A DNA stretch of 55,245 nucleotides. It comes from Rhodobacterales bacterium RIFCSPHIGHO2_02_FULL_62_130. Lineage in GTDB: Bacteria; Pseudomonadota; Alphaproteobacteria; Rhodobacterales; Rhodobacteraceae. The stretch is taken from the NCBI GenBank assembly GCA_001828855.1, contig MHZT01000008.1:1-55245 (forward strand), read 5' to 3'. Position numbers and translations under genes: made by a program. A model generated the notes under the pieces. That model saw only the letters and a program-made list of their open reading frames with translations. It was not told the DNA's origin and ran no database searches. Positions 30,585 through 52,245 of the stretch are shown one piece after another. Within the stretch, counting starts at the first letter, position 1. Every line of letters starts with the position of its first letter.

Positions 30585-31589
30585 ATGAGCAATATAAGAG
30601 TTCTCGTGACGGGCGCCGATGGTTTCATAGGGTCCCATCTGACCGAAATGCTGGTTCGCGACGGCTATGAAACCCGTGCATTCGTCATGTACAACTCGCT
30701 CAACAGCTGGGGCTGGCTCGACCGCGCCCCCAAGGACTTGGCCGGGCAGTTCGAGGTAGTTGCCGGCGATATCCGTGACCCGCATGGCATCGCCGAGGCG
30801 ATGGAGGGCGTCGACATCGTTCTACATCTCGCTGCATTGATCGCGATCCCTTTCAGCTACTGTTCTCCCGATGCATATGTTCAAACCAATATGACTGGTA
30901 CGCTCAACGTACTGCAGGCCGCCCGTCGCTTGGGCACTTCGCGGGTTGTCTCCACCTCCACCTCAGAAGTTTATGGCACGGCACAATTCGTTCCGATCTC
31001 CGAGGAGCACCCGCTAAACGCGCAATCGCCATACGCGGCCACCAAGGTCGGGGCAGACCAGATGGCGCTGTCGTTCCAGCGTTCCTTCGAGACCCCGATC
31101 GCAGTGCTGCGACCGTTTAACACCTACGGCCCCCGGCAATCCGCCCGCGCAGTGATTCCGACAATTATCAGCCAGATCGCTGCCGGGTCCCGAAAAATCA
31201 AGCTGGGCTCGCTGACGCCCACGCGCGATTTCACCTTCGTGCGCGATACCGCGCGCGGTTTCATTCAGGCGATGCGATGCGACGCCGCCGTGGGTCGGGT
31301 GACCAACATCGGTTCAGGCTTCGAGATTTCCATCGCCGACACGGTCACCGTCATCGCCGAAGCAATGGGCGTCGAGGTCGAGGTGGTGCCCGACGAGAGC
31401 CGGATGCGCCCCGAAGCGAGCGAGGTCGAACGGCTGTTTGCCAGCACCGAGGTTGCGCGCGAGCTGTTCGGCTGGAAGCCGGATTTCGGTAGCCGCGACG
31501 GGTTCCTGCGCGGGTTGGCCGAGACCGCCGAATGGTTTCAGGACCCGGCGAACCTCGCCGCCTACAAGACCGACTGCTACAACATCTGA
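30585..31589 (+). CDS. legB: NAD-dependent 4,6-dehydratase LegB
   Basis: A 334-aa extended SDR enzyme. The Rossmann motif is VLVTGADGFIGSHL (about 6-19). The catalytic region is STSTSEVYGTAQF and the YxxxK motif is SPYAATKVGAD. LegB removes water from GDP-GlcNAc to give the 4-keto-6-deoxy sugar, the first committed step of the GDP-linked legionaminic acid route. ATG 30585 is chosen for its fit to the SDR start and the GGAG 10 bases upstream; a nearby in-frame upstream start adds nothing conserved. It opens a seven-gene set with overlapping or near-overlapping ends, in the same order logic as other leg clusters. Confidence 0.88.
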   Translation: MSNIRVLVTGADGFIGSHLTEMLVRDGYETRAFVMYNSLNSWGWLDRAPKDLAGQFEVVAGDIRDPHGIAEAMEGVDIVLHLAALIAIPFSYCSPDAYVQTNMTGTLNVLQAARRLGTSRVVSTSTSEVYGTAQFVPISEEHPLNAQSPYAATKVGADQMALSFQRSFETPIAVLRPFNTYGPRQSARAVIPTIISQIAAGSRKIKLGSLTPTRDFTFVRDTARGFIQAMRCDAAVGRVTNIGSGFEISIADTVTVIAEAMGVEVEVVPDESRMRPEASEVERLFASTEVARELFGWKPDFGSRDGFLRGLAETAEWFQDPANLAAYKTDCYNI

Positions 31590-31600
31590 GGACTGGCATC

Positions 31601-32794
31601 ATGGCTGGGGCCGCTTCCCATACTTCTATCTTGGCAGGCGTTCTCGACCGGCTCGCGCATGTGCTCGGGCCGAGCAACGGGTTCATCCCGCTACATGTCC
31701 CCGAGTTCAACGGCGCCGAGAAAGAACTAGTTACCAAATGTATCGACACCGGCTGGGTGTCATCAGTCGGTAGTTTCGTCGACCAGTTCGAGCGCGACGT
31801 GGCGGCAGCCTGCGGAACCGCGCACGGCGTCGCTGTGGTCAACGGCACGGCCGCGCTGGAAGTGGCGATGCAAGTGGCCGGCGTTCGCCCAGGCGACGAG
31901 GTGCTGATGCCCGCGCTCACCTTTGTTGCCACCGCCAATGCTGCCCATCACCTTGGTGCCGTGCCGCATTTCGTCGACAGCGCCGCCGAAACGCTGGGCA
32001 TCGACCCGGTCGCGCTTGCCAAACACCTGCGGCGGATCGGCCAGCCGAGCCCGGATGGGCTTGTTAACCGCGAAACCGGCCGGAGGATTTCCTGCGTCGT
32101 GCCGATGCACGTTTTCGGCCACCCGGTCGAACTCGACGAGCTCGCCGCCGTGGCCGACGAATTCGGCCTGGTCTTCGTCGAAGACGCTGCCGAGTCCCTC
32201 GGCAGCCGCTACAAGGGCCGCGCTTGCGGCAGCTTCGGGCGTGTCGGCGCGGTCAGCTTCAACGGCAACAAGATCGTCACCACCGGCGGCGGCGGAGCGA
32301 TCGTGACCGACGACGAGGCTCTGGCGCGCCGCGCCAAGCACCTGTCGAGCACCGCCAAGATGCCGCACCGCTGGGCTTTCGATCATGACGAACCGGGCTA
32401 CAACTACCGCTTGCCCAACCTCAACGCCGCGCTCGGTGTGGCACAGATGGCGCAACTTGGCGAGCGGCTTGAGCAGAAGCGCCGGCTGGCTCGGCGCTAT
32501 ATCGACGGATTTTGCGGTTTCAGTGGCGGGACGATCTTCGCCGAGCCCGCTGGTGCTCAGAGCAATTACTGGCTGAATGCGCTGGTGCTCGCGCCGCGGA
32601 TCACGGTGGCGGCGCGCGACGCATTGCTCGACGGGCTCAATGCTGCGGGCTACATGGCTCGCCCGGTCTGGAAGCTGATGCACCGCCTGCCGTTCCACGC
32701 CACCTTCCCCCGCGCACCGCTGCCGGTGGCCGAAGACTTGGAGCGGCGTATCATCAATCTGCCCTCCTCAGCGATGTTGGCGGACCGGGCATGA
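31601..32794 (+). CDS. legC: LegC-family PLP-dependent aminotransferase
   Basis: A 397-aa DegT/DnrJ/EryC1-type aminotransferase. The LegC-type N-terminus is FIPLHVPEFNGAEKELVTKC and DTGWVSSVGSFVDQFE. The cofactor region includes NGTAALEVAM, VEDAAESLGSRYKGRACGSF, and the Schiff-base Lys in SFNGNKIVTTGGGGAI. It aminates the 4-keto sugar made by LegB. ATG 31601 starts 11 bp after legB. It overlaps the next gene by ATGA (32791-32794), so translation is coupled. Confidence 0.9.
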   Translation: MAGAASHTSILAGVLDRLAHVLGPSNGFIPLHVPEFNGAEKELVTKCIDTGWVSSVGSFVDQFERDVAAACGTAHGVAVVNGTAALEVAMQVAGVRPGDEVLMPALTFVATANAAHHLGAVPHFVDSAAETLGIDPVALAKHLRRIGQPSPDGLVNRETGRRISCVVPMHVFGHPVELDELAAVADEFGLVFVEDAAESLGSRYKGRACGSFGRVGAVSFNGNKIVTTGGGGAIVTDDEALARRAKHLSSTAKMPHRWAFDHDEPGYNYRLPNLNAALGVAQMAQLGERLEQKRRLARRYIDGFCGFSGGTIFAEPAGAQSNYWLNALVLAPRITVAARDALLDGLNAAGYMARPVWKLMHRLPFHATFPRAPLPVAEDLERRIINLPSSAMLADRA

Positions 32795-33933
32795 AGGTGC
32801 TTGCTTTAACTGGCACGCGGGCGGACTGGGGACTGCTGGTCCCAGTCCTTAACCTGCTGCGCGATGACGACCGCTTCGACCTTCAGATCGCCGCCACCGG
32901 TCAGCACTTGATGGCGGGCAGCTGCTCGCTTAAGGCGATCGCCGCTGACGGGCACCGGGTCGATCACCTGGTCGAAATGGGGCTCGGCTGCGACGACAGC
33001 ACCGTAGCGCTTGCGCGAGGGATGGGCGCCGCGACAGCGGGGCTCGGCGCGGTGCTCGCATTCAGCCGACCCGACCTCCTGATGGTGCTGGGCGATCGTT
33101 ACGAGATCCTCGCCGCAGCGCTGGCCGCTGTGGTCGCCCGGGTACCAATCGCGCATATTTTCGGGGGCGATGTAACTGAAGGGGCAATTGACGATTCCAT
33201 CCGCCACGCCCTCACCAAGCTAGGCGCCCTGCATTTCCCCTCGAACGCCGAAAGCGCGGCGCGGATCATGCAAATGGGCGAAGACCCGCTTCGGGTGCAC
33301 TGCGTTGGCTCCACCGGGATCGACCGGATCCTCGCGCTTGAGCCGATGGAGCGCGACCGGTTCTTCACCTCCGTCGGCATCGCGCCCCGGACGAAGAACT
33401 TCCTCATCACATTCCACCCGGCAACTCTCTCCGACGATTCGACCGCCCAAGCACAGGCGATGCTCGACGCGCTCGACGCTTTCCCCGAGGTTGGGCTGAT
33501 CTTCACCGGCTCAAACGCCGACCCGGGCGCACGCGAGATCGACGCGCTGATCGAGGCCTATGTTGCCGGGCGCGACGGCGCTGTGTTCCACACCTCGCTG
33601 GGCTCGCGGCGCTACTTCTCAGCGCTGACACATTGCGACCTCGTGATCGGCAATTCGTCGAGCGGCGTGATGGAGGCCCCGAGCTTCCGCCTGCCGACGG
33701 TGAACATCGGTGACCGCCAGGCGCGCCGGCCGCGCGCCGCCTCGGTGATCGACTGCGACCCGATTCCTTCAGCCATCTACAACGCGATCCGCGCGGGGCT
33801 TGCACGCGATCGCACGAACGTCGAAAACCCATACGGCGACGGCCATGCAGCCGAGCGGATCGTCGCAGTGCTTGCCGCCGTCAACGCGTGCCAGACCTTG
33901 GTGAGGAAATCATTCGTGGACTTGCCGAGATGA
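32791..33933 (+). CDS. legG: NDP-sugar hydrolysing 2-epimerase (NeuC/LegG)
   Basis: A 380-aa member of the UDP-GlcNAc 2-epimerase family. It starts MKVLALTGTRADWGLLVPVL, with the GTRAD nucleotide-binding motif. Other landmarks are LLMVLGDRYEILAAA, IAHIFGGDVTEGAIDDSIRH and VIGNSSSGVMEAPSF. In the legionaminate route it releases the 2-epimerised 2,4-diacetamido sugar from its nucleotide. It overlaps both neighbours with ATGA junctions (start with legC, stop with neuB-like gene at 33930-33933). Confidence 0.88.
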   Translation: MKVLALTGTRADWGLLVPVLNLLRDDDRFDLQIAATGQHLMAGSCSLKAIAADGHRVDHLVEMGLGCDDSTVALARGMGAATAGLGAVLAFSRPDLLMVLGDRYEILAAALAAVVARVPIAHIFGGDVTEGAIDDSIRHALTKLGALHFPSNAESAARIMQMGEDPLRVHCVGSTGIDRILALEPMERDRFFTSVGIAPRTKNFLITFHPATLSDDSTAQAQAMLDALDAFPEVGLIFTGSNADPGAREIDALIEAYVAGRDGAVFHTSLGSRRYFSALTHCDLVIGNSSSGVMEAPSFRLPTVNIGDRQARRPRAASVIDCDPIPSAIYNAIRAGLARDRTNVENPYGDGHAAERIVAVLAAVNACQTLVRKSFVDLPR

Positions 33934-35036
33934 CCAACCAGACCCGCACGATCGTCATCGCCGAAGCCGGTGTGAACCATAACGGCGATTTGGAACTTGC
34001 TCTCGAGCTAGTCGACCGGGCAGCCGAGGCTCGAGTCGACTTCGTCAAGTTCCAGACCTTCAAAGCGTCCAAGCTTGCCACGAAAGCGGCGCCGAAGGCG
34101 GCTTACCAGAAAGCCACTACTGACGCTGACGAAAGCCAGCTCGATATGCTGCGCCGGCTTGAGCTCACTCCGACGGACCACCGCGTGCTGATCGAGCGTT
34201 GCACCGAGAAAGGCATCGACTTTCTGTCAACCGCCTTCGATCTCGACAGCCTCGCCTTTCTCGCCGACGATCTCGGGCTGAACACCTTGAAGCTCGGCTC
34301 GGGTGAGCTCACCAATGGGCCGATCCTGCTTGCCGCTGCGCGCAGTGGCATGAGTCTTCTTCTCTCCACTGGAATGGGGTCGCTAGCGGAGGTGGAAGAG
34401 GCGCTCGGAGTGATCGCCTTCGGCCTGATGCATCTAGGCACGCCGACGGGGCGGACAGACTTCGCCGAGGCGCTGCTTCACCCGACGGCCTGGGCGGCGC
34501 TGCGCGAACGTGTAACGCTGCTGCATTGCACCACCGAGTACCCGGCCGCAGTGGAAGACACCAACCTGCGCGCTATCGACACGATGCGCCAGGCCTTCGG
34601 GCTGAGAGTGGGTTATTCCGATCACACAAGGGGCAACGCAATGAGCATCGCCGCCGTGGCGCGTGGTGCTAGCGTGATTGAGAAGCATTTCACGCTCGAC
34701 CGGAAGATGGACGGGCCCGACCACGCCGCCTCCGTCGAACCGGACGAGCTCGCCCAGCTCGTGCGCGACATCCGCGCAGTCGAGGCCGGTCTGGGCAGCG
34801 GGATCAAGCAGCCCGGCCCGGCGGAGATTCGCAACCGGCCGATCGTGCGCAAATGCGTTATCGCCGCGCGCCATATCACGGCCGGCCGTACCATCGTCCC
34901 GGATGACCTCGCGACCAAGCGCGGCGAGGGGGCGATTCCCGCCATAGCGCTGTGGGATTGCGTTGGTCGCCGAGCCCGGCGCGACTTGGCCGCGGAGACC
35001 GCCTTCGACTGGGAGGCGATGACATGGGCCGACTAG
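33930..35036 (+). CDS. legI: Nonulosonate synthase (NeuB/LegI)
   Basis: A 368-aa enzyme with the NeuB TIM-barrel: IVIAEAGVNHNGDLELALEL, VDFVKFQTFKASKL, NTLKLGSGELTNGPIL and VGYSDHTRGNAMSIAAVARG with IEKHFTLDRKMDGPDH. A C-terminal SAF domain follows (VRKCVIAARHITAGRTIVPD), as in type III antifreeze-like NeuB tails. It condenses phosphoenolpyruvate with the six-carbon diacetamido sugar to give the nine-carbon acid. The overall gene set makes legionaminate more likely than Neu5Ac as product. It ends 13 bp into the next gene. Confidence 0.9.
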   Translation: MTNQTRTIVIAEAGVNHNGDLELALELVDRAAEARVDFVKFQTFKASKLATKAAPKAAYQKATTDADESQLDMLRRLELTPTDHRVLIERCTEKGIDFLSTAFDLDSLAFLADDLGLNTLKLGSGELTNGPILLAAARSGMSLLLSTGMGSLAEVEEALGVIAFGLMHLGTPTGRTDFAEALLHPTAWAALRERVTLLHCTTEYPAAVEDTNLRAIDTMRQAFGLRVGYSDHTRGNAMSIAAVARGASVIEKHFTLDRKMDGPDHAASVEPDELAQLVRDIRAVEAGLGSGIKQPGPAEIRNRPIVRKCVIAARHITAGRTIVPDDLATKRGEGAIPAIALWDCVGRRARRDLAAETAFDWEAMTWAD

Positions 35037-35683
35037 TCGGGGTATTCGGCAACGCTGGGTTCGGGCGCGAGGTCATGCCGCTTCTGCGCCGGCAGTTGCG
35101 CGACAGCCATCCCGCCGACGAGCTGGTGTTCGTCGCCCCGACTGTCGAAGCACCGGTCAACGGCGTTGCGGTCGTCACTGAGGCCGATTTCCTCGCTTCG
35201 CCTCGGGTGCGCGCTTTTGCCATAGCCATAGCCGACTCGGCGACCCGCAGACGGCTGCATTCGCTAGCCATCGACAGCGGGGCCGAAGCGCTTGAGGTGC
35301 GTGCTGGTAGCGCCGAGTTGCTGGACGAGGTGATGCTGGGCGCAGGAGCGATCCTGTGCGGGCATAGTTCGATTTCATCGAACACCCGGGTCGGGGTCGG
35401 GTTCCATCTCAATATCTCGTCCTATCTCGCGCATGATTGCCTGGTCGGCGATTTCGTCACTTTCGGCCCCAACGTTGTCTGTGCGGGCAACGTGACCGTC
35501 AAAGACGGCGCCTATATCGGCGGCGGCGCCCTCATTCGCCAAGGCAAGCCCGGGGCGCCAGTGGTCATCGGGGCCGGTGCCACGGTTGGAATGGGCGCGG
35601 TCGTTACCAAGAGCGTGCCCCCGGGCGCTGTCGTGGTCGGCAACCCGGCACGGATCCTGCAGAAAGGGCAACGGCATGAATGA
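35024..35683 (+). CDS. NeuD/PglD-family acetyltransferase (LegH candidate)
   Basis: A 219-aa left-handed beta-helix acyltransferase. The N-terminal PglD-type Rossmann part is LVGVFGNAGFGREVMPLLRR. The hexapeptide repeats run from about 105 (GAGAILCGHSSISSNTRVGV, GDFVTFGPNVVCAGNVTVKD, GAYIGGGALIRQG, VIGAGATVGMGAVVTKSVPP) to the end GNPARILQKG. In this pathway an enzyme of this class N-acetylates the 4-amino sugar made by LegC, so a LegH role is favoured. O-acetylation of the finished sugar, as NeuD does, is the alternative. Confidence 0.8.
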   Translation: MGRLVGVFGNAGFGREVMPLLRRQLRDSHPADELVFVAPTVEAPVNGVAVVTEADFLASPRVRAFAIAIADSATRRRLHSLAIDSGAEALEVRAGSAELLDEVMLGAGAILCGHSSISSNTRVGVGFHLNISSYLAHDCLVGDFVTFGPNVVCAGNVTVKDGAYIGGGALIRQGKPGAPVVIGAGATVGMGAVVTKSVPPGAVVVGNPARILQKGQRHE

Positions 35684-36755
35684 ATGGCCTACGAAATTGA
35701 AATCGTTGATCCTGTCTGAATTCGCCACAGTCCACGACGCGATGGCGGCGATCGACCTCGGTGCGCAGCAGATTGCGCTGGTCGTCGACGGCGACGGCAG
35801 GCTGCGCGCCACTGTCACCGACGGCGATATCCGCCGTGCGCTCCTGCGCGGGGTCGGGCTTGACGCACCGGTTTCGCAGGTTATGCATAGCGCCTTCACC
35901 GCAGTCACCCAGGACATGGGTCGGGAGGCAGCCCTGATCCTAATGCAGGCGCGCGGGCTGCACCATGTGCCGATTGTCGACACCGATGGCCGACTGGTCG
36001 ACCTTGCGGTGGTCGACGATAAACTTGGAGTGGTGCGCCGCGATACCCGCGTAATTCTGATGGCCGGAGGGCTTGGCACGAGGCTCAGGCCGCTGACCGA
36101 GACTGTGCCCAAACCGATGTTGCCGGTAGGCGGAAAGCCGATCCTCGAGTTGATTCTGCGCAAATTTATCGAGCAGGGGTTCCACGATTTTACCATCGCT
36201 CTCAACTACAAGGGCGAGATGATCCGAGATCATTTCAGCGACGGATCCCGGTTCAACGCCCGGATCGATTATGTTGAGGAGACGAAGCAAATGGGCACTG
36301 CCGGTGCGCTTTCGTTGCTCGAAACCCGCCCAGACGGTCCGTTCATCGTGATGAACGGAGACTTGCTCACAACGGTTTCTTTTGACTTACTGGAACGGTT
36401 TCATCGTGAATGTGGTGCCGTCGGCACGATGTGCGCGCGCAATTACCCTATTCAGGTGCCCTACGGAGTGATCGAGATGGAGGGCGCTGAACTCCGCCGC
36501 ATCGTCGAAAAGCCGACCTACTCGCATTTCGTGAACGCGGGGATCTACGTGCTTTCCCCCGAGGCGCTCGATCACATGGTGGCGGGTGAATTCCTGGACA
36601 TGCCGACCCTTTTCGAACGGATAATGGCCGTCAACCATAAAGCCGCAGTGTTTCCAATCGAGGAATACTGGATCGATATCGGCCGGCCCGACGATCTTGA
36701 CAGGGCGCGCACTGAACACTCCGAGATGTTCAGTGCCGACGAAGACGGGGAGTGA
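35676..36755 (+). CDS. CBS-domain sugar-phosphate nucleotidyltransferase (PtmE-like)
   Basis: A 359-aa protein with a tandem CBS pair (about 8-118: ATVHDAMAAIDLGAQQIALV, ATVTDGDIRRALLRGVGLDA, QARGLHHVPIVDTDGRLVDL) fused to an NTP_transferase domain. The pyrophosphorylase signature is LMAGGLGTRLRPLTETVPKP (about 128), then MGTAGALSLLETRPDGPFIV with MNGDLL and VNAGIYVLSPEAL. In Campylobacter, PtmE of this architecture makes GDP-GlcNAc for the legionaminate route. The same role here would explain a GDP-linked pathway. It overlaps the preceding gene by 8 bp. Confidence 0.85.
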   Translation: MNEWPTKLKSLILSEFATVHDAMAAIDLGAQQIALVVDGDGRLRATVTDGDIRRALLRGVGLDAPVSQVMHSAFTAVTQDMGREAALILMQARGLHHVPIVDTDGRLVDLAVVDDKLGVVRRDTRVILMAGGLGTRLRPLTETVPKPMLPVGGKPILELILRKFIEQGFHDFTIALNYKGEMIRDHFSDGSRFNARIDYVEETKQMGTAGALSLLETRPDGPFIVMNGDLLTTVSFDLLERFHRECGAVGTMCARNYPIQVPYGVIEMEGAELRRIVEKPTYSHFVNAGIYVLSPEALDHMVAGEFLDMPTLFERIMAVNHKAAVFPIEEYWIDIGRPDDLDRARTEHSEMFSADEDGE

Positions 36756-36832
36756 AGTTCGCTTTGACACGCGGATGCCCCGAAGCGACAAAGTATGATC
36801 CTCGAGGGCGTGCCGTGCAGGAATTTCATGTG

Positions 36833-37531
36833 ATGATACCAACTCAACCCAAGGTTCTAGCCATCATCCCTGCCCGCGGAGGTTCAAAAGGTGTGCCCCA
36901 GAAGAATCTCCGGTCGCTGGGTGGCAGGCCCCTTATTGAATGGACGATCGATGCGGCGCGCGATGCGGCGTGCGTGACCCGCGTCATTGTCTCCACCGAT
37001 TCACGGCAGATCGCAGATGTGGCGCGCGCCGCCGGTGCCGATGTGCCCTTCCTGCGCCCGGCCGAGCTCGCCACCGACACCGCAAGCTCGTTGGATGTCG
37101 TCGCCCACGCGATCCAGATGTGCCCCGGCTATGACATCGCTCTTCTGCTGCAACCGACCTCGCCTTTGCGCACGAGCGCCGACATCGACGCGGCGTTTTC
37201 CCTAATGCGGTTCACCAACGCAGAAAGCTGCGCATCCGTGGCGCTGGTCGATGAGACGCCTTGGCTGATGTTCCGCCTCGATGACTCTGGCAGGATGGAA
37301 CGGATCCTTCCGCCCTGGCCGGGCGGAATGCGCAGGCAAGACCTGCCGTCGGTCTACACCGTGAACGGAGCCATGTATTTCGTGATGATCGCCGCATTTG
37401 CGGAAAACGGGCAACTGATCACCGACGAAACGGTGGCCTACGAAATGGACCCCGAGAAAAGCATAGACCTTGACACCTACGCCGATTTTGAGCGGGCGGC
37501 AGCGATCCTCAGTGCGAATCGCCCAGAATAG
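36833..37531 (+). CDS. legF: CMP-nonulosonate (legionaminate) cytidylyltransferase
   Basis: A 232-aa CMP-sugar synthetase. Motifs are LAIIPARGGSKGVPQKNLRS (CTP binding), GRPLIEWTID, VIVSTDSRQIADVARAAGAD, ALLLQPTSPLRTSADIDAAF and the acidic end MDPEKSIDLDTYADFE. It activates the nine-carbon acid as the CMP donor, the last step before transfer. ATG 36833 is preferred because conserved sequence begins just after it. A GTG at 36752 that overlaps the previous stop would add 27 unconserved residues and cannot be excluded. Confidence 0.88.
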   Translation: MIPTQPKVLAIIPARGGSKGVPQKNLRSLGGRPLIEWTIDAARDAACVTRVIVSTDSRQIADVARAAGADVPFLRPAELATDTASSLDVVAHAIQMCPGYDIALLLQPTSPLRTSADIDAAFSLMRFTNAESCASVALVDETPWLMFRLDDSGRMERILPPWPGGMRRQDLPSVYTVNGAMYFVMIAAFAENGQLITDETVAYEMDPEKSIDLDTYADFERAAAILSANRPE

Positions 37532-37656: not shown

Positions 37657-39099
37657 ATGATCATGAAAAAGGCCATAAAGGCCCTGATTTGGTCACTGGT
37701 CGGACAGATCGGTTCGAGCGGGATTTCCACGATATTCATCCTGGTCTTCGCGCGTTTCATGCCGCCTGCGGAATTCGGCGTTTTCGCCGCTGGCGCGATG
37801 GTCACGAACCTCGCCTCGATGCTCGCGGGCCTCGGATTGGCGACCGCCCTTGTTCAGCAGAAACAGTTTGATACGACGACGATCAGCACGGCGTTCTGGC
37901 TCGCGACCGCTGCGGCCGCGGTGTTTGCGGTGGCTGCGGTTGCCTTGGCCGGCCCAATCGCCCTGTTGTTCCAAGACCCACGCATTCACGGCATCATGCT
38001 ACCGCTGGCGATCACCATGATTGTCAGCAACGGGACGGCGATACTTACCACGGTCCTTCGTCGCGATCTGGATTTGAGAGCCCTGTCGCTGCGCGCATTT
38101 GTTGTCAACCTGGCCGCTGGTCTCATTGCAACGCCCCTGGTAATGACCGGTCACGGGGCGGCTGCCCTTGTAACCCAGTCGGTCGCAAACGCGGTCCTCT
38201 CGTTGATCGCCACGATTGTGCTGCTCGGTTGGCGTGTCCGTCTGCGATTTGACCGAGATGCCGCGAAAGAAATGTTGCAATACAGCATTCCAGTCATGAA
38301 GTCTGATTTCCTCAACATCGCGAATCTGGAAAGTCCGAAACTCTTCATCGGAGTCCTTCTTGGCAGCGATGCGCTCGGGTTGTATTCGATGGCAAATCGG
38401 CTCCTGAACCTGTTACTCCAGGTGTTCGGAACGCCTCTTTCGAGCGTCGCATTCCCGCTTTTGTCCGAAGTGTATCGCAATGAGCCGAAACAGGTGGGCA
38501 AGCTCTATATTCGGATCTTAAAGCTGACCGCAGTCACCATCCTCCCGGTGTTCCTGGTGTTCTCCAGCTTCGGGGTGGATATCGTGACGCTCTTCTTCGG
38601 GCCGAACTGGGAGGGCGCCGGGTTCCTGTCGGTCTGGATGAGCCTGTCCGGCATCCTGCTTGTTCTGGGATATGTCAACGGGGCAACAATCATGGCAATC
38701 GGTTACCCACAACAGCGTTATCGGTATATTCTGGCAGGGGTTCTGGTCGGAACGATCCTACTCGCGGCGATGACCCCGCTCGGTCTGGCCTGGGTCGGTG
38801 TCGCCTTGCTGCTAAGGGCACTTTTCACGGAAGTGCTTTTGACGCGCGGCGTTCTGCGACTCCTCGGCATGGCATTCCCCAACGCGGTTAGCAGCCTCAT
38901 GCCCCAGGCAATCGCCGGGATCGCGCTGGTGACCACGGCGGTTGCCGTCCAGCTTGAGTTCACTGGCGCGAGCGCATTGTTTTCCGTGGCCTTTGGCGGC
39001 ACGGCAGCGCTGGGTTCCTATGTTGTCAGCACCTGGATCCTCGACCGCGGCGTTTTCGCGCAACTGTCCTGCCTTTTTCGCAAGCAGGTAGCGGAATGA
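37657..39099 (+). CDS. wzx: Polysaccharide flippase, Wzx-like
   Basis: A 480-aa integral membrane protein of the MOP/PST superfamily with about 12-14 hydrophobic segments. The start KALIWSLVGQIGSSGISTIF and the segments FARFMPPAEFGVFAAGAMVT, YSIPVMKSDFLNIANLESPK and DALGLYSMANRLLNLLLQVF match Polysacc_synt-type flippases. It should move the undecaprenyl-linked repeat unit across the inner membrane. A 125-bp gap separates it from the legionaminate genes, so a separate translation unit or internal promoter is possible. Confidence 0.85.
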   Translation: MIMKKAIKALIWSLVGQIGSSGISTIFILVFARFMPPAEFGVFAAGAMVTNLASMLAGLGLATALVQQKQFDTTTISTAFWLATAAAAVFAVAAVALAGPIALLFQDPRIHGIMLPLAITMIVSNGTAILTTVLRRDLDLRALSLRAFVVNLAAGLIATPLVMTGHGAAALVTQSVANAVLSLIATIVLLGWRVRLRFDRDAAKEMLQYSIPVMKSDFLNIANLESPKLFIGVLLGSDALGLYSMANRLLNLLLQVFGTPLSSVAFPLLSEVYRNEPKQVGKLYIRILKLTAVTILPVFLVFSSFGVDIVTLFFGPNWEGAGFLSVWMSLSGILLVLGYVNGATIMAIGYPQQRYRYILAGVLVGTILLAAMTPLGLAWVGVALLLRALFTEVLLTRGVLRLLGMAFPNAVSSLMPQAIAGIALVTTAVAVQLEFTGASALFSVAFGGTAALGSYVVSTWILDRGVFAQLSCLFRKQVAE

Positions 39100-42998: not shown

Positions 42999-43060
42999 CA
43001 GACTGGCGGTTTGTTTCAACGGAGCTGCAGAACATGACCACAATCGATATTCGGAAATGA

Positions 43061-43243: not shown

Positions 43244-44194
43244 ATGATGCTTTTGTCTATCGCAAAGAAAACGCGCACGCTGCTCATGGGCGTGACATCA
43301 TCTGTTGCGGGCGCTTCGGAAGTTGCTCTTGGCATGTTGCTCAGCATTGTGTCGTCGCGCCTCGTTCCTTGCGTGCCCGCCAAAGATCGTGCGCGGGATT
43401 CGCTCATCGTCTGCCCGTCGCCGCTGCTCGATCAGCAAATTGTGAATCCGGCATTTCGCGGACATTACGTGATCTCTTTCGTCAACAGTGCCTGTCTCAG
43501 CCCGACCTTTCAGACTCTTAAGCCCGAAAGGATGTTCCTGATCGATCCGGCATTCTTTCAGGACCATCCCGCCGGCGACGAAGTTATGAATTCCGGAGTC
43601 GAGCGAACGCTGGCGCGGATCGCTGTCGCCACGGATTGGCCAATGAGTCTGATGATTCCGTGGCACTACCGCCATTCGGCAATCGTGAAGTGGATTCAGG
43701 CAAACCCGAATATCAGAATTGTCGGCCTGCCTGTATGCAACGCCCGCAGTCACAACAAATTTTTCAAGAAACTGGGACTTCGACTCGGGGTTGTTAACCC
43801 AGTCTACCAGAACGTCCTGATTGCCGCCGTATTTTACAGCCTGAAAGCGGGGCACACACGCACCCTGATTTGGGGCGGCCACCACAACTGGTTGGCTGAG
43901 GTGGCTGTTGACGGGCACAATCAGGTCCTACATTCCGTTCGCCACTCCGGCGAGCAGCATGTTGGCGTCCCGCTTGTAGATATGGATGGGTCGCCGCGTT
44001 TGTATCACACCTATCTCCGACAGCTCGCGACGGTATTTGAACAATACCACGTGATCCGAGACTACACACGCGGCACCGGCCAAGTGGTTCTGAACGCGAC
44101 TGCGGAAAGTTTTATTGATGCTTTCGAGCGTATCGACAGTATTTCCTTGTTCTCGCCGAAGCGCGACGATGACGATCACAAACAAAGTCTATGA
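43244..44194 (+). CDS. Uncharacterised polysaccharide-cluster protein, candidate glycosyltransferase
   Basis: A 316-aa protein with an N-terminal hydrophobic region (about 1-42) and no firm family. The order of segments (SLIVCPSPLLDQQIVNPAFR, VNSACLSPTFQTLKPERMFL, IDPAFFQDHP, then NPVYQNVLIAAVFYSLKAGH, LIWGGHHNWLAEVAVDGHNQ and a C-terminal SFIDAFERI) resembles DUF115/MptE-like or GT42-like proteins seen in other surface-sugar loci. GT42 includes sialyltransferases. In a cluster that makes a CMP-nonulosonate but lacks any recognised nonulosonate transferase, it is the best candidate for that step. This role is inference only. Gaps of 245 and 411 bp flank it. Confidence 0.6.
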   Translation: MMLLSIAKKTRTLLMGVTSSVAGASEVALGMLLSIVSSRLVPCVPAKDRARDSLIVCPSPLLDQQIVNPAFRGHYVISFVNSACLSPTFQTLKPERMFLIDPAFFQDHPAGDEVMNSGVERTLARIAVATDWPMSLMIPWHYRHSAIVKWIQANPNIRIVGLPVCNARSHNKFFKKLGLRLGVVNPVYQNVLIAAVFYSLKAGHTRTLIWGGHHNWLAEVAVDGHNQVLHSVRHSGEQHVGVPLVDMDGSPRLYHTYLRQLATVFEQYHVIRDYTRGTGQVVLNATAESFIDAFERIDSISLFSPKRDDDDHKQSL

Positions 44195-44605
44195 TTGGGT
44201 CTTACTTGAAAATATGTAGCGTTTTAGTTTAGGTCGAACCTAGATGAAAGCGGTCTGGGTTGGCTATACAAGAAAGGCCTGTGCGGTCCTGGCGGAGATG
44301 GCGACGCATGTGCCTTCTTTGAATGTCGGTGCTGGCCCCGGAAATCCCTTCGTCTGCGCAGCAGGTTTCACTTCGATCGTGCGATATCGAGTTTCAAATA
44401 ACCGTCCGAGCTGTTAGTATCAGGCCTAGCTCGGAAGAGCACCACAAACAGCCAGTATGGATTTGCGTTTGCAGCAACAGAAATTTGGCAAAAAGCTTCG
44501 AGTTGCGCAGAATCTTAATATATTCTGAACAAAAGATAGCCGCGCAACATTACTCAGACGTCGAAAAATATGCCGCGGTGGCTGTCGCCAAGGATTAAAT
44601 TGAAA
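44195..44605 (+). other. 411-bp gap inside the EPS cluster
   Basis: No convincing gene. Short frames exist but none has a good start, and the composition is AT-rich. It may hold an internal promoter or be the trace of a lost gene. Confidence 0.3.
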
Positions 44606-45157
44606 ATGCTAAAATCAATCTTTAGAAATATCTACCGTTGGCTGAACCGACTCCTATCGGTCAGGTCAAATGTCGTTATTCATCCTAATCTAGTTGTCGG
44701 CGTGTCAAGTTATATCACGGCGCCGAACCGGTTGGAAATCGGGCGCGACGTTTCGATCGGGAGAAACTGTTGGATCGCCTGCGATGGGCGGATTGGCAAC
44801 GGCGTGCTGATCTCAAGTTATGTAGCGATTGCCGGCCGCTATGATCACGACATGAGGGAAGTGGGTGTTCCGATAAGCATGGCTAGTTGGGTATATGACT
44901 CGGACCTCAGTGAAGATGTTAAGGACAAGAACACGATTGTGATTGAAGACGACGTCTGGATCGGGGTTGGATCCGTTATTCTTTCCGGTTTGCGGGTCGG
45001 CCGATCGGCAGTGATCGCAGCCGGATCGACTGTTACGCGAGACGTTTCGGAAAACACCATTGTTGCGGGAAATCCTGCAAAGGCCGTGGGACAGCGCTTT
45101 TCAGCATCAGATTTCGTAATTCAGAGCGAAGCACTCTCACGTCGTTACAGAAAATGA
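44606..45157 (+). CDS. Hexapeptide-repeat acyltransferase (WcaF/LbH type)
   Basis: A 183-aa left-handed beta-helix protein. An N-terminal amphipathic stretch (FRNIYRWLNRLLS) precedes the repeats: LEIGRDVSIGRNCWIACDGR, IGNGVLISSYVAIAGRYDHD, then a loop (about 85-110), VIEDDVWIGVGSVILSGLRV, GRSAVIAAGSTVTRDVSENT and AGNPAKAVGQRF. This is the xenobiotic/CoA-dependent acetyltransferase form common in EPS loci. It probably O-acetylates a sugar of the repeat unit. Its stop overlaps a short 52-codon frame by ATGA. Confidence 0.85.
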   Translation: MLKSIFRNIYRWLNRLLSVRSNVVIHPNLVVGVSSYITAPNRLEIGRDVSIGRNCWIACDGRIGNGVLISSYVAIAGRYDHDMREVGVPISMASWVYDSDLSEDVKDKNTIVIEDDVWIGVGSVILSGLRVGRSAVIAAGSTVTRDVSENTIVAGNPAKAVGQRFSASDFVIQSEALSRRYRK

Positions 45158-45312: not shown

Positions 45313-45327
45313 GGCAGGGGCAGTCGT

Positions 45328-46074
45328 ATGAAGATTACCATCATCACGGTGGTCTACAACCGTGCCGAAACAATTGGTCAGGCGCTCGAAAGCGTCGCGT
45401 CACAGAGCCACGGCGATGTTGAGCATCTGGTGGTAGATGGAGCCTCTGTTGACGGCACGCTCGAGGAAATCTGGGCGAGGAAGCGACCGCACATGCGTGT
45501 GATCAGCGAGCCTGACGCCGGGATTTACGACGCGCTGAACAAGGGGATCGCCGCCGCGACGGGGGAGGTCATCGGGCTTATGCACAGCGATGATTTCTTC
45601 GCCCATGACGAGGTATTGCAGGACGTAGCACGTTGCTTTGAGGAGACCGGGTCAGATGCGGTCTATGGCGATCTCGACTACGTGTCGGCCAGCGACGTAA
45701 CCCGGATCGTGCGCCGCTGGGTGTCGGGCGAATACACTCAGCGTCGGCTCGCCCATGGCTGGATGCCGCCGCACCCCGCGCTCTTTGTACGGCGCGAGGT
45801 GATCGAAGCCTTCGGACCCTACGACACCAGCTATCGTATTGCCGCCGACTACGAAGCCATCCTCAGATGGTTCGGTAGAGGTGGCATCACGCCCACCTAC
45901 CTGCCAGAAGTGCTCGTGAAGATGAGGGTCGGGGGGGAAAGCAACCGGTCTATCGAACTCATCCTGAGGAAAAGCCGTGAAGACTATCGCGCGCTGCGGT
46001 CGACCGGCGTCGGCGGGGTGCGGGCTCTAGCCTGGAAAAACCTCAGCAAGCTGCCGCAATTCCTGACAAAGTGA
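45328..46074 (+). CDS. Glycosyltransferase family 2
   Basis: A 248-aa GT-A enzyme. The start [58 protein letters not shown] and [19 protein letters not shown] (DxD-like, around 90) are classic GT2/WcaA-type sequence. The end ([13 protein letters not shown]) fits enzymes adding hexoses or 6-deoxyhexoses in colanic-acid-like loci. It lies 10 bp before gmd, so it is co-transcribed with the GDP-fucose genes. Confidence 0.9.
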
Positions 46075-46084
46075 GAAACACCGT

Positions 46085-47206
46085 ATGACGAAGACAGCAT
46101 TGATCACCGGCATCACCGGGCAGGACGGCTCCTATCTGGCCGAGTTCCTGCTGGCCGAGGGCTATGAGGTGCATGGTATCAAGCGGCGGGCCTCTCTGTT
46201 CAACACCCAGCGGATCGACCATATTTATGAAGATTTGCATAATCCGAACCCCCGCCTCAAGCTCCATTATGGCGATCTGACCGACAGTTCGAACCTGACG
46301 CGGATTCTGTCAGAAGTTCGGCCTGACGAGGTCTATAATCTCGGTGCCCAAAGCCATGTCGCGGTTAGTTTCGAAGTACCGGAATACACCGCCGATGTGG
46401 ACGCAATGGGGACTCTTCGCCTGCTGGAGGCGATCCGCTTCCTAGGATTGGAAAAGAAGACTCGCTTTTATCAGGCCTCAACCTCCGAGCTCTATGGTCT
46501 CGTACAGGAAATCCCACAGCGTGAGACCACGCCCTTCTACCCCCGCAGTCCCTATGCAGTTGCCAAGATGTATGCCTACTGGATTACGGTGAATTACCGC
46601 GAGGCCTACGGAATCTATGCCTGCAACGGGATCCTCTTCAACCATGAGAGTCCGCGCCGCGGCGAGACCTTCGTGACGCGCAAGATCACCCGCGGGCTGG
46701 CCAATATCGCGCAGGGGCTGGAGCCGTGTCTTTATATGGGCAATATCGACGCACTCCGCGACTGGGGGCACGCGAGGGATTATGTGCGCATGCAATGGAT
46801 GATGCTACAACAGGACGAACCAGAGGACTTCGTGATCGCCACAGGCGTTCAATATTCGGTGCGCGAGTTTATCCAATGGAGCGCGGCGGAAGTTGGTTTA
46901 TCCCTGAGCTTCCGGGGACAAGGCGTCGAGGAGTGCGCGGTGGTCACAGCGGTCAAAGGTGACAAGGCGCCTGCGGTCAAGCCAGGCGATGTTGTCGTGC
47001 GGATCGACCCTCGCTACTTCCGCCCGGCCGAAGTGGAGACACTCTTGGGTGATCCGACGAAGGCAAAGGAAAAACTTGGCTGGGTACCAGAAATCACAGC
47101 GCAAGAGATGTGCGCCGAGATGGTGGAAGAAGACCTCAAGGCGGCCCGCCGCCACCGACTGCTTCGCGAGAACGGGCTGGACCTGCCGGTCTCGCTGGAA
47201 GGCTGA
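46085..47206 (+). CDS. gmd: GDP-mannose 4,6-dehydratase
   Basis: A 373-aa SDR enzyme, full length for Gmd. Motifs are [20 protein letters not shown] (NADP binding), [40 protein letters not shown], catalytic [20 protein letters not shown] with YxxxK in [12 protein letters not shown], and [19 protein letters not shown]. It converts GDP-D-mannose to GDP-4-keto-6-deoxymannose, the first step to GDP-L-fucose. It is followed after 11 bp by fcl. Confidence 0.95.
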
Positions 47207-47217
47207 GGAGTTCGAAC

Positions 47218-48174
47218 ATGAAGATCTACGTTGCAGGCCATCGGGGCATGGTTGGGAGCGCAATCCTGCGCCAATTGAAAACGCGCGGGGAAGACAACAT
47301 CGTCACCCGTACGCATCCCGAACTGGATCTGACCGATCAAGCCGCTGTGCGTGGCTTCATTCAGGCGGAAAAGCCGGATGTGGTAATTCTGGCTGCCGCG
47401 AAGGTGGGCGGCATTTTTGCCAACAAAACCTATCCTGCTGACTTCATATATGAAAACCTGATGATCGAATGCAACGTGATCAATCAGGCCTTTGAGGCGG
47501 GTGTCAAACGTCTGCTACAACTGGGCTCGAGCTGCATCTACCCCAAGGCTGTCGCTCAACCCATGGCAGAGAGTGCCCTTCTCACTGGCACGCTCGAACC
47601 CACGAACGAGCCCTATGCCATCGCAAAAATCGCCGGAATCAAGCTCTGCGAGAGCTACAACCGGCAACACGGGACGGATTATCGCTCCGTCATGCCTACA
47701 AACCTTTACGGGCCAGGAGACAATTTCCATCCGGAAAACAGTCATGTCCTGCCGGCACTGATCCGCCGCTTCCATGAAGCGGCCCTTGATGGGCTTGACC
47801 AGGTGACGATCTGGGGAAGTGGCAATCCGCGCCGCGAGTTCCTGCATGTCGATGACATGGCGGAAGCAAGCCTCTTCGTCCTGGACCTCGACAAGGAGGC
47901 TTATCAGGCCAACACGGAGCCGATGCTGAGCCATATCAATGTCGGAACTGGCACGGACATCTCAATCTTGGAACTGGCTCAGATGGTCGCACGGGTCACA
48001 GGGTTCCAAGGGGCGATTGTGACCGATCCCTCCAAGCCCGACGGGACCATGCAGAAACTGATGGATGTCAGCCGCCTCGCCCGCATGGGATGGCAGGCAC
48101 GTACAGGTCTTGAAGACGGCATTGCCGAGACCTACCGCTGGTATCTCGAGAATGCCGAAACCGCGCGGCATTGA
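47218..48174 (+). CDS. fcl: GDP-L-fucose synthase
   Basis: A 318-aa SDR epimerase-reductase. It starts [20 protein letters not shown]. Further motifs are [40 protein letters not shown] (Ser region) and [20 protein letters not shown] (YxxxK), then [20 protein letters not shown]. It completes GDP-L-fucose synthesis from the Gmd product. ATG 47218 follows GAGG; longer upstream frames lie inside gmd. Confidence 0.95.
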
Positions 48175-48186
48175 AGGTCAAGACGC

Positions 48187-49635
48187 ATGACTTCCATTAT
48201 TCATCCCGTCCTCCTTTGCGGCGGCTCCGGAACGCGGCTCTGGCCCTTATCGCGGAAATCCTATCCGAAGCAATTCGTCAATCTCGTTGGGGAGGAAAGC
48301 CTGTTTCAGGCCTCCGCCCGGCGCCTTTCAGGCCCGGGCTTCGCTGCTCCTTCTGTCGTGACGGGTTCTGATTTTCGATTTGTCGTGGTCGAGCAATTGG
48401 CAGCGCTAAAGATCGCGCCTGCAGATATCCTGATCGAACCCTGCGCGCGTAACACGGCCGCCGCGATTTGTGCCGCCGCGCTGCGGCTTGATGCCCGGGA
48501 GCCCGGGGCGCTCCTGCTGGTTGCGCCCTCGGATCATGTCATTGCCGATCCCGATCGTTTCCGCGCTGCGGTTGTTGCCGCCGCTCCGGCTGCCGAGGCA
48601 GGACAATTGGTAACTTTTGGGATCCGGCCTGACCGCCCTGAGACTGGGTATGGCTGGCTGGAGTTGAGCACCAAACCTGATCGAGATTTCGGCGCCCTGC
48701 CCCAGCCCCTGAAATCCTTCGTGGAAAAACCAGACCGCGCCACAGCGGAGCGTCTCCTGGCAGGCGGCATGCATCTGTGGAACGCAGGTATTTTCCTATT
48801 CTCCACGACTGCAATCCTTGATGCTTTCGCCAGGCACGCACCTGATATACTGGCGCAGACCCGAGAGGCAGTTTCAAACGCCGAACAGGATCTCGACTTC
48901 ACGCGGATCGCGGCGGAGCCTTGGGAAAGGCTTGACGATATTTCGATCGATTATGCGGTCATGGAACGTGCGAACAATCTGACAGTGGTGCCCTATGGAG
49001 AAGCCTGGTCCGATCTCGGTGACTGGCAGGCGGTCTGGCGTGAGAGCCCCCCCGATGGGGATGGTGTCGTCACCTCAGGTGCCGCGACGGCGATCGATTG
49101 CACAGACACACTCCTGCACGCGACGAGCAAGACACAGCATCTAGTTGGCATCGGTCTAGAAAATATCATCGTCGTTGCCATGCCCGATGCCGTTATGGTG
49201 GCCCACAAGGACCGCGCGCAAGACGTCAAAATCGCCGTGCAAAAGCTGAAATCCAAAGGGGCGCCCCAGGCCGAAACGCTGCCACGCGACTACCGCCCTT
49301 GGGGATGGTATGAAAGTTTGGTCGTTGGGCCCCGGTTCCAGGTGAAGCGGATCGTCGTCCATCCGGGCGCCAGCCTTAGCCTGCAGAGCCATCACCATCG
49401 TGCCGAACATTGGATCGTCGTGGAGGGCACCGCAAAGGTGACGATCGACGATAGCGCGAAGCTCATCACCGAAAACCAATCGGTCTATATTCCGCTAGGT
49501 GCGGTGCATCGCATGGAAAACCCCGGGAAACTGCCGCTTACGCTGATCGAAGTTCAGACCGGCAGCTATCTCGGTGAGGATGACATCATCCGATACGAAG
49601 ATGTCTATGCGCGTGGCCAAGGCGCCAAAGGCTGA
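48187..49635 (+). CDS. manC: Mannose-1-phosphate guanylyltransferase / mannose-6-phosphate isomerase
   Basis: A 482-aa bifunctional type II PMI-GMP. The GMP domain shows LLCGGSGTRLWPLSRKSYPK, EPCARNTAAAICAAAL, LLVAPSDHVIADPDRFR and FVEKPDRATAERLL. The C-terminal cupin PMI domain (from about 365) shows YRPWGWYESLVVGPRFQVKR, LSLQSHHHRAEHWIVVEGTA and YIPLGAVHRMENPGKLPL. It makes mannose-6-phosphate and GDP-mannose, the entry to GDP-fucose. It starts 12 bp after fcl. Confidence 0.95.
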   Translation: MTSIIHPVLLCGGSGTRLWPLSRKSYPKQFVNLVGEESLFQASARRLSGPGFAAPSVVTGSDFRFVVVEQLAALKIAPADILIEPCARNTAAAICAAALRLDAREPGALLLVAPSDHVIADPDRFRAAVVAAAPAAEAGQLVTFGIRPDRPETGYGWLELSTKPDRDFGALPQPLKSFVEKPDRATAERLLAGGMHLWNAGIFLFSTTAILDAFARHAPDILAQTREAVSNAEQDLDFTRIAAEPWERLDDISIDYAVMERANNLTVVPYGEAWSDLGDWQAVWRESPPDGDGVVTSGAATAIDCTDTLLHATSKTQHLVGIGLENIIVVAMPDAVMVAHKDRAQDVKIAVQKLKSKGAPQAETLPRDYRPWGWYESLVVGPRFQVKRIVVHPGASLSLQSHHHRAEHWIVVEGTAKVTIDDSAKLITENQSVYIPLGAVHRMENPGKLPLTLIEVQTGSYLGEDDIIRYEDVYARGQGAKG

Positions 49636-49658
49636 ACCTCGCAGGCAAGGAAAAGGCG

Positions 49659-51062
49659 ATGGCACCGAAATTCGGAACAAGCGGGCTGCGGGGTCTGGTG
49701 AGCGAACTGACCCCCGCTCTGGTTTCTGAGTATGTTCGCGCCTTTCTGGCGGCTTGCCCGATCGGAACCGGTCTTTACGTTGCACGCGACCTTCGCCCCT
49801 CCTCGCCAGACATTGCGGCAGCGGTCATTGCTGCGGCGCGCGGCGCAGGCATTCAGGTGACCGATTGCGGCGAAGCCCCGACGCCGGCACTGGCACTGGC
49901 CTCGATGCACGCCGGCGCGGCGGCGGTAATGATCACGGGCAGCCACATTCCCGCCGACCGCAACGGGCTCAAATTCTACCTCCCGGACGGTGAAATCTCC
50001 AAGGCGGACGAAGCGGCAATCCGCGCTGCACTGGAATCCGCTCCAGCCGTGATCGGGCCGGACCAAGGCGCCTTGCGCTCCGCCGAGGTCGGCCCCGCCT
50101 GGGTTGCCCGTTATGTGGCGGCTTTTGGCGCAACGGCGTTGCGCGGATTGAAGATCGGCGTCTGGTCGCACAGCGCCGTCAGTCGGGATCTGCTCGTCCA
50201 GACTCTGCACGAGCTTGGGGCCGAGGTGATTGAGTTGGGCCGATCGGACAGCTTCATTCCTGTCGACACCGAGGCCGTCCCCGATTGGGCCAAGGCAAAG
50301 ATCGCGTCCTGGGTAACAGCACATAGACTTGATGCGCTTGTGTCGACCGATGGAGATGGCGACAGGCCTCTCGTTGCCAACGCGTTAGGCCGGGTCATTC
50401 CGGGAGATATTCTGGGCCAGATCACTGCAACTGTGATCGGCGCAGAGCAAGTCGTGACGCCGATCAGTTCGAACAGCGGCGTTGAGGCGGAAGGGCGCTT
50501 CGGCCGCGTGATGCGCACCCGGATCGGTTCACCTTTCGTGATCGAAGGCATGAAGGCGCTCGGTGGCCGCGTGGTGGGCTATGAAGCCAACGGCGGATTT
50601 CTGCTCGGCTTTCCCGCTACACTGGCGAAGGGAATTTTGGCTCCTCTGGCGACCCGTGACAGTCTGCTTCCGATCATCGCACCCTTGTCTTGCCTCCGGA
50701 AGACGGGAAGCCTCGCCGATCTCGTCGCACGCGAACCCGCCCGGTTCACCGCTACGGACCGATTGGAAGGAGTAGAGCCCGTAACGTCTCGCGCCCTGAT
50801 CGAGCGTTTCCGGGCAGATCAGGCACGGCTTGCGGCCTTCCTCTCGAGCCTGGACGAGACTCCTCTTCACATCGACCAGACGGATGGATTGCGCATTAAT
50901 TGCGCCTCCGGGCGCGTGGTGCATTTCAGGCCTTCGGGGAATGCGCCTGAGTTGCGTCTTTATGTTGAAGCCGAAACGGCTTTCGCAGCCGATGACCTCC
51001 TTGCAAAGGGACTTTCCGGACTGGCGCGCGCGATCACCACTCGCCTGGGCTGGGCGCCCTAG
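49659..51062 (+). CDS. manB: Phosphomannomutase / phosphohexomutase
   Basis: A 467-aa alpha-D-phosphohexomutase. The N-terminus is FGTSGLRGLVSELTPALVSE. The phosphoserine loop is VMITGSHIPADRNGLKFY (Ser about 95), the Mg loop is STDGDGDRPLV (about 225), the sugar loop is VGYEANGGFLLG and the phosphate loop is FRPSGNAPELRLYVEAE. With ManC, Gmd and Fcl it completes fructose-6-phosphate to GDP-L-fucose. It lies 23 bp after manC and is the last gene of the EPS cluster. Confidence 0.9.
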   Translation: MAPKFGTSGLRGLVSELTPALVSEYVRAFLAACPIGTGLYVARDLRPSSPDIAAAVIAAARGAGIQVTDCGEAPTPALALASMHAGAAAVMITGSHIPADRNGLKFYLPDGEISKADEAAIRAALESAPAVIGPDQGALRSAEVGPAWVARYVAAFGATALRGLKIGVWSHSAVSRDLLVQTLHELGAEVIELGRSDSFIPVDTEAVPDWAKAKIASWVTAHRLDALVSTDGDGDRPLVANALGRVIPGDILGQITATVIGAEQVVTPISSNSGVEAEGRFGRVMRTRIGSPFVIEGMKALGGRVVGYEANGGFLLGFPATLAKGILAPLATRDSLLPIIAPLSCLRKTGSLADLVAREPARFTATDRLEGVEPVTSRALIERFRADQARLAAFLSSLDETPLHIDQTDGLRINCASGRVVHFRPSGNAPELRLYVEAETAFAADDLLAKGLSGLARAITTRLGWAP

Positions 51063-52233: not shown

Positions 52234-52245
52234 GGGGGTTTGTCA

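Follow-up and report, generated by a model that had tools for sequence, protein, structure and literature searches.

What would a bacterium make with a gene cluster that joins the enzymes for a legionaminic-acid-type nine-carbon sugar (a nonulosonic acid) to those for GDP-L-fucose, and which of the encoded proteins would attach the former to a glycan? The question is raised by contig MHZT01000008.1 of Rhodobacterales bacterium RIFCSPHIGHO2_02_FULL_62_130, hereafter the window: one entire contig of 55,245 bases (C8) from an assembly of 4.97 Mb in 53 contigs. It carries a polysaccharide gene cluster of ~20 kb (30585-51062, plus strand throughout), in which a legionaminate (Leg) module and a fucose module enclose a set of transferase and polymer assembly genes. 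Judged by this gene content, the cluster very probably makes a Wzx/Wzy-type heteropolysaccharide that contains both a legionaminic-acid-type sugar and L-fucose. The best candidate for the transfer of the former is an unassigned gene in the middle of the cluster, here called X.

Genes of the cluster and the predicted route to the polymer

The genes are arranged as follows: LegB, LegC, LegG, LegI, LegH, PtmE-like and LegF at the Leg end; Wzx, GT4, Wzy-like, GT11, X, acetyltransferase and GT2 in the middle; and Gmd, Fcl, GMP/PMI and a hexose-phosphate mutase at the fucose end (Table 1). The genes listed in the original prediction, made from the sequence alone, were all recovered by NCBIfam and Pfam profile matches in the places assigned to them, including the GT11 fucosyltransferase and the Wzx- and Wzy-like proteins, which match above the Pfam cut-offs. 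That inventory holds for what it lists and had passed over four genes, starting at 39329 (GT4), 43244 (X), 44570 (acetyltransferase) and 45328 (GT2). The Leg genes are coupled, as had been claimed: LegB and LegC are 11 bases apart, LegC through PtmE overlap, and a gap of 77 bases separates PtmE from LegF, for which an earlier GTG start at 36752 is possible. The GC content of the span from GT4 to the acetyltransferase is 50-55%, versus 59-66% in the Leg module.

Table 1. Features of the cluster and its flanks. Scores from NCBIfam models are bits versus the curated cut-off, those from Pfam are versus the gathering score.
Feature	Position	Strand	Evidence
NusG paralogue, RfaH-like (antitermination factor)	28786..29433	+	Pfam NusG; RfaH model 114 bits, below cut-off 144.5
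MarR family EPS-associated regulator (MarR_EPS)	29718..30086	+	TIGR04176 139 vs 88
LegB, NAD-dependent 4,6-dehydratase	30585..31589	+	TIGR04180 499 vs 475
LegC, aminotransferase	31601..32794	+	TIGR04181 496 vs 420
LegG, hydrolysing 2-epimerase	32791..33933	+	TIGR03568 (NeuC_NnaA) 375 vs 236
LegI, nonulosonate synthase	33930..35036	+	TIGR03569 (NeuB_NnaB) 432 vs 400
LegH-like N-acetyltransferase	35024..35683	+	TIGR03570 143 vs 161, best of family, below cut-off
PtmE-like sugar-1-P nucleotidyltransferase with CBS domain	35676..36755	+	PF00483 and PF00571
LegF, CMP-nonulosonate synthetase	36833..37531	+	PF02348; tree
Wzx-type flippase	37657..39099	+	PF13440 (Polysacc_synt_3) 204 vs 23
GT4-type glycosyltransferase	39329..40528	+	NCBIfam GT4-type models, all below cut-off
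Wzy-like polymerase (Wzy_C)	40786..42075	+	PF04932 37.7 vs 31.7
GT11 fucosyltransferase	42072..42998	+	PF01531 109.8 vs 23.9
Gene X, stand-alone relative of MptE-like/Maf core and CstII-type sialyltransferases; proposed legionaminyltransferase	43244..44194	+	profile, structure, neighbourhood
Hexapeptide-repeat acetyltransferase	44570..45157	+	PF00132 43.2 vs 27
GT2 glycosyltransferase, WcaE-like	45328..46074	+	TIGR04009 73 bits, below cut-off 369
Gmd, GDP-mannose 4,6-dehydratase	46085..47206	+	TIGR01472 589 vs 415
Fcl, GDP-L-fucose synthase	47218..48174	+	NF047922 515 vs 500
GMP/PMI, mannose-1-P guanylyltransferase / mannose-6-P isomerase	48187..49635	+	TIGR01479 581 vs 373
Phosphohexomutase	49659..51062	+	GlmM models 178 and 118, PMM/PGM models 74-78, all below cut-off
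Tyrosine recombinase adjoining the cluster	51296..52246	-	profile match; relatives in flanks of three plasmid loci

The enzyme families were recognised by these profile matches; the reactions, the route via GDP-sugars and the polymer that we assign to them are modelled on known pathways. The CMP-legionaminate gene set that had been proposed is present, with LegB, LegC, LegG and LegI above cut-off, LegH and LegF matching their families below it, and both domains of the PtmE-like protein found. Following the step order of the Leg pathway, PtmE would convert GlcNAc-1-P or GlcN-1-P to a GDP-sugar, which LegB would turn into a 4-keto sugar; this would be aminated by LegC and then acetylated by LegH, epimerised and released by LegG, condensed with a three-carbon unit by LegI and activated to CMP-Leg by LegF. 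According to the excerpt of PMC4481668 that cites such a scheme, GlmM and GlmU could feed PtmE. GDP-L-fucose would be formed by GMP/PMI, a phosphomannomutase, Gmd and Fcl. The original claim of a complete route to it stands for Gmd, Fcl and GMP/PMI and is weaker for the mutase, which scores highest on GlmM models and stays below cut-off on all (the top score, on an archaeal GlmM model, is set against a cut-off of 439). This mutase may be a phosphomannomutase or a phosphoglucosamine mutase and could serve either sugar route. Fucose would then be added by GT11, Leg most likely by X, and other sugars by GT4 and GT2; the acetyltransferase would decorate the repeat, Wzx would flip it and Wzy polymerise it.

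Some observations weigh against a self-contained pathway of this kind. No initiating transferase was found in the window, the PF02397 proteins of the genome being located only on contigs C48 and C1, and no export machinery was found in the window either. Queried with the MraY-type initiator of Sulfitobacter sp. W027, which carries a related locus (see below), the genome gave no match in a search run without a positive control; the export protein of W027 gave a weak match on contig C51 (E 1.6e-4). Among the scanned cluster proteins none was recognised as an SDR or Gfo/Idh protein of the kind that PtmA or PtmF would be, and the related loci of genome G635 and Sulfitobacter faviae do have Gfo/Idh and SDR genes beside LegF, which we equate by inference with PtmF and PtmA.

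Recurrence of the two-module frame

The pairing of Leg with L-fucose, presented in the original prediction as uncommon, is not a one-off: among the window's kin at least five other loci combine the two, and so does a locus in Geotalea. LegB scored above cut-off in 7 of 394 genomes (393 genera) of the window's family. In the stretches of 20-40 kb fetched around these genes, Gmd, Fcl and GMP/PMI lie near the Leg genes in three (the window, G635 and G754), and no match to any of them was found in the other four. Among 72,556 plasmid records 99 had a LegI match, three of these at a level of at least 60%, all from Rhodobacterales and all with both modules: Sulfitobacter sp. W027 (NZ_CP083567), Aestuarium zhoushanense (CP021116) and Sulfitobacter faviae (NZ_CP139727). 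Across the five relatives with both modules, i.e. these three plasmids and genomes G635 and G754, identity to the window is 78-79% for LegB, 84-87% for Gmd and 80-81% for Fcl, and in four of the five MarR_EPS also lies upstream of LegB.

The middle genes behave differently. None of the five relatives shows, in the stretches fetched, a match to Wzx, Wzy, X or the mutase; GT11 is matched in A. zhoushanense only, and GT2 over its full length in three (G754, W027 and S. faviae). In the plasmid loci the GT4 and acetyltransferase genes show loose similarity. The middle regions of G635 and S. faviae are for the most part common to both. Since the Leg and fucose ends are alike and the middle genes largely unrelated, the frame is conserved and the middle exchanged. 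We conclude that the locus belongs to a type that recurs in the window's kin, in which the Leg and fucose modules are kept and the transferases that go with them can be swapped. A description of a Leg-and-fucose cluster in Rhodobacterales was not found in the titles and abstract openings of the papers listed by searches of the open-licence PubMed Central literature.

The frame itself varies in detail. In G754 the order differs, PtmE and LegF lying apart from LegB-C-G-I. The surroundings of LegF come in two versions: one without Gfo/Idh and SDR genes (the window, W027 and A. zhoushanense) and one with both (G635 and S. faviae). The second version of the PtmE-LegF junction (12041-14681 of locus L044 and 1302-3819 of L167) holds a Gfo/Idh oxidoreductase, a different LegF and an SDR. 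All three plasmid loci have, in the flanks fetched, a tyrosine recombinase 65-73% identical to the one that adjoins the cluster; only in S. faviae does it stand immediately next to GMP/PMI. In W027 a GMP/PMI remnant (L168, ~2255-3485), in which ~10% of the gene was matched, lies beside an IS21 istB gene, and the GDP-mannose step looks broken there. Directly after LegF the W027 locus encodes a 405-aa protein without Pfam or NCBIfam family (L151:21494-22708), which could be the nonulosonate transferase of that locus.

Gene X and the sugar that it may transfer

Gene X is an open frame of 316 codons whose GC content at third codon positions (GC3) is similar to that of its neighbours. Relatives of X were found among the open reading frames (ORFs) of 80 loci around LegF genes, in Geotalea (5.6e-20) and in two Bacteroidetes, and a fourth was added by profile in a Verrucomicrobiales bacterium; as all four loci had been reached via LegF, their Leg context is there by construction. 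The family was kept to these first five sequences, the iterative profile having drifted into full-length Maf proteins. Three of the four relatives pass the gathering score of the MptE-like family PF01973 and the fourth falls below it. Run against the PDB, the five-sequence profile matched 8 distinct sequences at E ≤10: seven alpha-2,3/2,8-sialyltransferase entries (the best at E 0.0083, the other six at 0.12-0.34) and one unrelated protein at 0.1. The seven entries are, we assume, variants of about one protein, CstII, of family GT42. The central PF01973 domain of Maf is described as structurally like Cst-II, a Campylobacter jejuni sialyltransferase, and Maf enzymes as transferring legionaminic and pseudaminic acids and glycosylating flagellins, in the excerpt of PMC11339370.

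The neighbourhood of X points the same way. The Geotalea locus reads Gmd, Fcl, LegB-C-G-I-H, PtmE, LegF, other genes, X, acetyltransferase, GT2, and thus shares the order X-acetyltransferase-GT2 with the window. Between 1356 and 8285 of this locus (L064) Gmd, Fcl, LegC and LegI are matched piecewise and in different frames, as in frameshifted draft sequence or decaying genes. As a check on the bias noted above, the five-sequence profile was run in two genome searches independent of Leg genes, which gave matches in 8 of 349 genomes of the phylum (the window's own included) and in 3 of 297 of the order of G1067 (G1067 included), nine genomes besides the window's own. One piece covers most of the profile only in G1067 and G1250, G978 has two pieces, and the remaining matches are short and partial. 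In six of the nine (G1067, G1250, G978, G1024, G1138 and G942) the ~20 kb fetched around the match include a LegI-like synthase, a count given without a background rate. Because only G1067 (LegB 58%) and G942 (PtmE 47%, LegI 48%) have a Leg-like context, the link of the X family is to nonulosonates at large, which favours a nonulosonate role of the superfamily over a Leg-only role. The relative in G978 (L169, 9700-10486, minus strand) has a broken frame that splits it in two; its locus also holds LegI-, LegF- and LegC-like genes.

Folded as a single sequence, X reached a pLDDT of 35; an AF2 model from an alignment of 20 sequences reached pLDDT 74.9 and pTM 0.75. The best PDB match of this model is 8sd5, a Methanocaldococcus jannaschii HPPK of the MptE kind (prob 0.98, E 0.002), and the human sialyltransferase ST8SiaIII comes at rank 11 (prob 0.77); as the alignment contained PF01973 proteins, the fold match is not independent of the profile link. 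Taken together, profile and model suggest a remote kinship of X with the MptE-like/Maf core and with bacterial sialyltransferases. On this distant homology and on its neighbourhood, X is the best candidate for the legionaminic-acid transferase, a role that we consider somewhat better than an even bet.

Several results count against that role. On its own, X has no Pfam or NCBIfam match, falls in no family even at E 1 and misses the PF01973 gathering score. Direct searches with it matched 1 of 385 genomes of the class, its own; gave 23 stretches with the searched pattern and no relatives among the genome contigs; found no match in the plasmids; and retrieved nothing better than E 0.66 among solved structures. 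The best structural matches of the model have TM-scores of 0.26-0.36, none at E 0.001. In three of the nine profile-matched genomes (G929, G1062 and G1211) no LegI-like gene lies within the ~20 kb fetched, and several of the profile matches are larger Maf-like proteins. Gly59, Ser61 and Asp213, which 19 of 19 aligned relatives retain, are replaced in X by Ser, Leu and His. These changes would also be expected of a decayed or inactive copy, with another glycosyltransferase, in the cluster or elsewhere, adding the nonulosonate. The five two-module relatives, without an X match in the fetched stretches, would need such an enzyme in any case. Against decay stand the intact frame with its GC3 like that of the neighbours, the six residues common to the four close relatives and retained in X (N81, N190, H214, P243, D292 and R296), and the scan of the cluster proteins, in which no other sialyltransferase-type family was matched. 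We regard decay as a serious though doubtful alternative to X as the Leg transferase. More broadly, and only tentatively, X and its relatives in Geotalea, Bacteroidetes, Verrucomicrobiales and an alphaproteobacterium may form a stand-alone Maf-core family that loads nonulosonic acids on polysaccharide repeats and links flagellin Maf proteins with sialyltransferases, with the donor site altered in the window; together with the recurrent Leg-fucose frame it would make up a modular antigen system of the window's kin.

The type of nonulosonic acid was approached through trees of LegI and LegF, built by a quick method from 100 loci; rows with stops or shorter than 250 aa (LegI) or 180 aa (LegF) were dropped, which kept 82 and 83. 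Of 80 loci sorted by a labelling rule, 36 came out as Leg, 28 as unclear and 16 as not-Leg; L146 and L161 also received the label RosLeg by default, and neither is a confirmed Leg locus of the window's family. In the LegI tree (83 rows: the window and the 82) LegI clusters with its counterparts from G635, A. zhoushanense, S. faviae and W027 (SH-aLRT 100), inside a part of 49 rows (support 93) to which Leg loci contribute 29 and unclear ones 14; the 11 PseI, selected by profile, group separately (support 97). A grouping with enzymes of other types, which the original prediction had named as evidence against itself, was hence not seen for LegI; on the PseI model it scores 212 versus a cut-off of 340. 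By this sequence evidence LegI is of the legionaminate type, distinct from PseI. In the LegF tree (89 cytidylyltransferases) LegF stands with the A. zhoushanense and W027 copies (support 99), in a set of 35 rows (98) made up of 22 Leg, 9 unclear, 2 plasmid Leg loci, 1 not-Leg and LegF itself. For LegF the same question was answered in part: the set consists mostly of Leg loci and the five solved NeuA fall outside it, but 12 of the 34 LegF rows from Leg loci, among them the copies of G635, G754, G631 and G578, fall outside as well, which weakens the assignment. The tree holds no PseF rows, and the Leg-versus-Pse call for LegF therefore rests on operon context. The best solved match of LegG is the GDP/UDP-N,N'-diacetylbacillosamine 2-epimerase 5zlr (226 bits), ahead of the next type, the bifunctional UDP-GlcNAc 2-epimerase 4zht (129 bits); this proximity fits Leg and not Neu5Ac. 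The LegH-like protein is closest to the hexapeptide transferase 4m9c (211 bits).

The sugar may yet be an isomer or derivative of legionaminate, such as the 8-epimer or another N-acyl form, and not Leg5Ac7Ac. The early genes would be the same and a later gene would decide; these early genes leave the final N-acyl groups unfixed, a second acetyltransferase is present in the middle of the cluster, and the genes around LegF vary among the relatives. No extra epimerase or modifying oxidoreductase was recognised among the scanned cluster proteins, and we consider this variant rather unlikely. A different destination, with the nonulosonate going onto protein, as in the O-glycosylation of flagellin, and fucose into a separate polysaccharide made by a merely adjacent module, would agree with the excerpted account of Maf proteins, with their central PF01973 domain, as flagellin glycosylating enzymes (PMC11339370). 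It is improbable, given the 316 aa of X and the lack of a Maf N-terminal domain match in X (two of three long Maf-like proteins scanned have one), the Wzx and Wzy-like genes between the modules, and the joint occurrence of both modules in five further loci. Neu5Ac or pseudaminate as the sugar, to which the best NCBIfam model of LegF (PseF, 171 versus a cut-off of 206) and the neuB/neuC annotation of the plasmid relatives might point, were set aside as hardly credible, with LegB and LegC above cut-off (neither of which is known to have a role in Neu5Ac synthesis), LegI apart from the 11 PseI and LegG nearest a bacillosamine-type epimerase.

Surroundings of the cluster and comparison with known systems

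Upstream of LegB, the RfaH-like NusG paralogue and MarR_EPS would fit the control of a long exopolysaccharide (EPS) operon. An IS21 istA/istB-like stretch (28168-28580), between an integrase at 26650 and the NusG paralogue, has matches in many rhizobial and some roseobacter plasmids; no replication gene was seen among 30 window proteins scanned with Pfam, which represent part of the ORFs of the window. Farther off lie an AT-richer glycosyltransferase block (4233-8035, minus strand: two GT2-like, one GT25 and one without known family), peptide-type ABC transporter genes with a metallophosphoesterase, a HAD hydrolase and a LysR regulator (10628-18728), and a gene for a 580-aa protein (20928-22670, minus strand) with three PKD-type domain matches that resembles the C-terminal part of M36-metallopeptidase models.

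Little is known of the enzymes that attach legionaminic acid to glycans of the cell surface, and a 2020 study, in the excerpt of PMC7439481, notes that no cell-surface legionaminic-acid transferase had been reported. For polysaccharide, X and its relatives offer candidates that can be tested. In their profile matches they resemble the Maf flagellin glycosyltransferases and CstII-type sialyltransferases, from which X differs in being short, in lacking a match to the Maf N-terminal domain and in the three changed signature residues. The recurrent frame predicts that the same two sugars are made by several plasmid-borne loci, and its exchanged middles resemble the pattern of O-antigen loci. All three plasmid loci share with the window MarR_EPS, LegB-C-G-I-H, PtmE and LegF at one end and Gmd-Fcl-GMP/PMI at the other, the last of these a remnant in W027; their middles are unrelated to that of the window except for GT11 in A. 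zhoushanense, GT2 in W027 and S. faviae, and the loose GT4/acetyltransferase similarity. Unlike the window, the W027 locus adjoins genes annotated for initiation and export, and that of S. faviae adjoins annotated export genes and a glycosyltransferase. The GDP-linked CMP-legionaminate pathway of the Campylobacter type (Schoenhofen 2009, as cited in the excerpt of PMC4481668) shares LegB, C, G, H, I, F and PtmE with the window, in whose cluster no PtmA- or PtmF-like gene was recognised. A parallel in composition is the glycan of Tannerella forsythia, which according to the excerpt of PMC6120980 contains L-fucose and, in some strains, Leg: its protein O-glycosylation cluster shares legBCHIGF and ptmE with the window, but its product is a protein-linked oligosaccharide, whereas a Wzx/Wzy polymer is predicted for the window.

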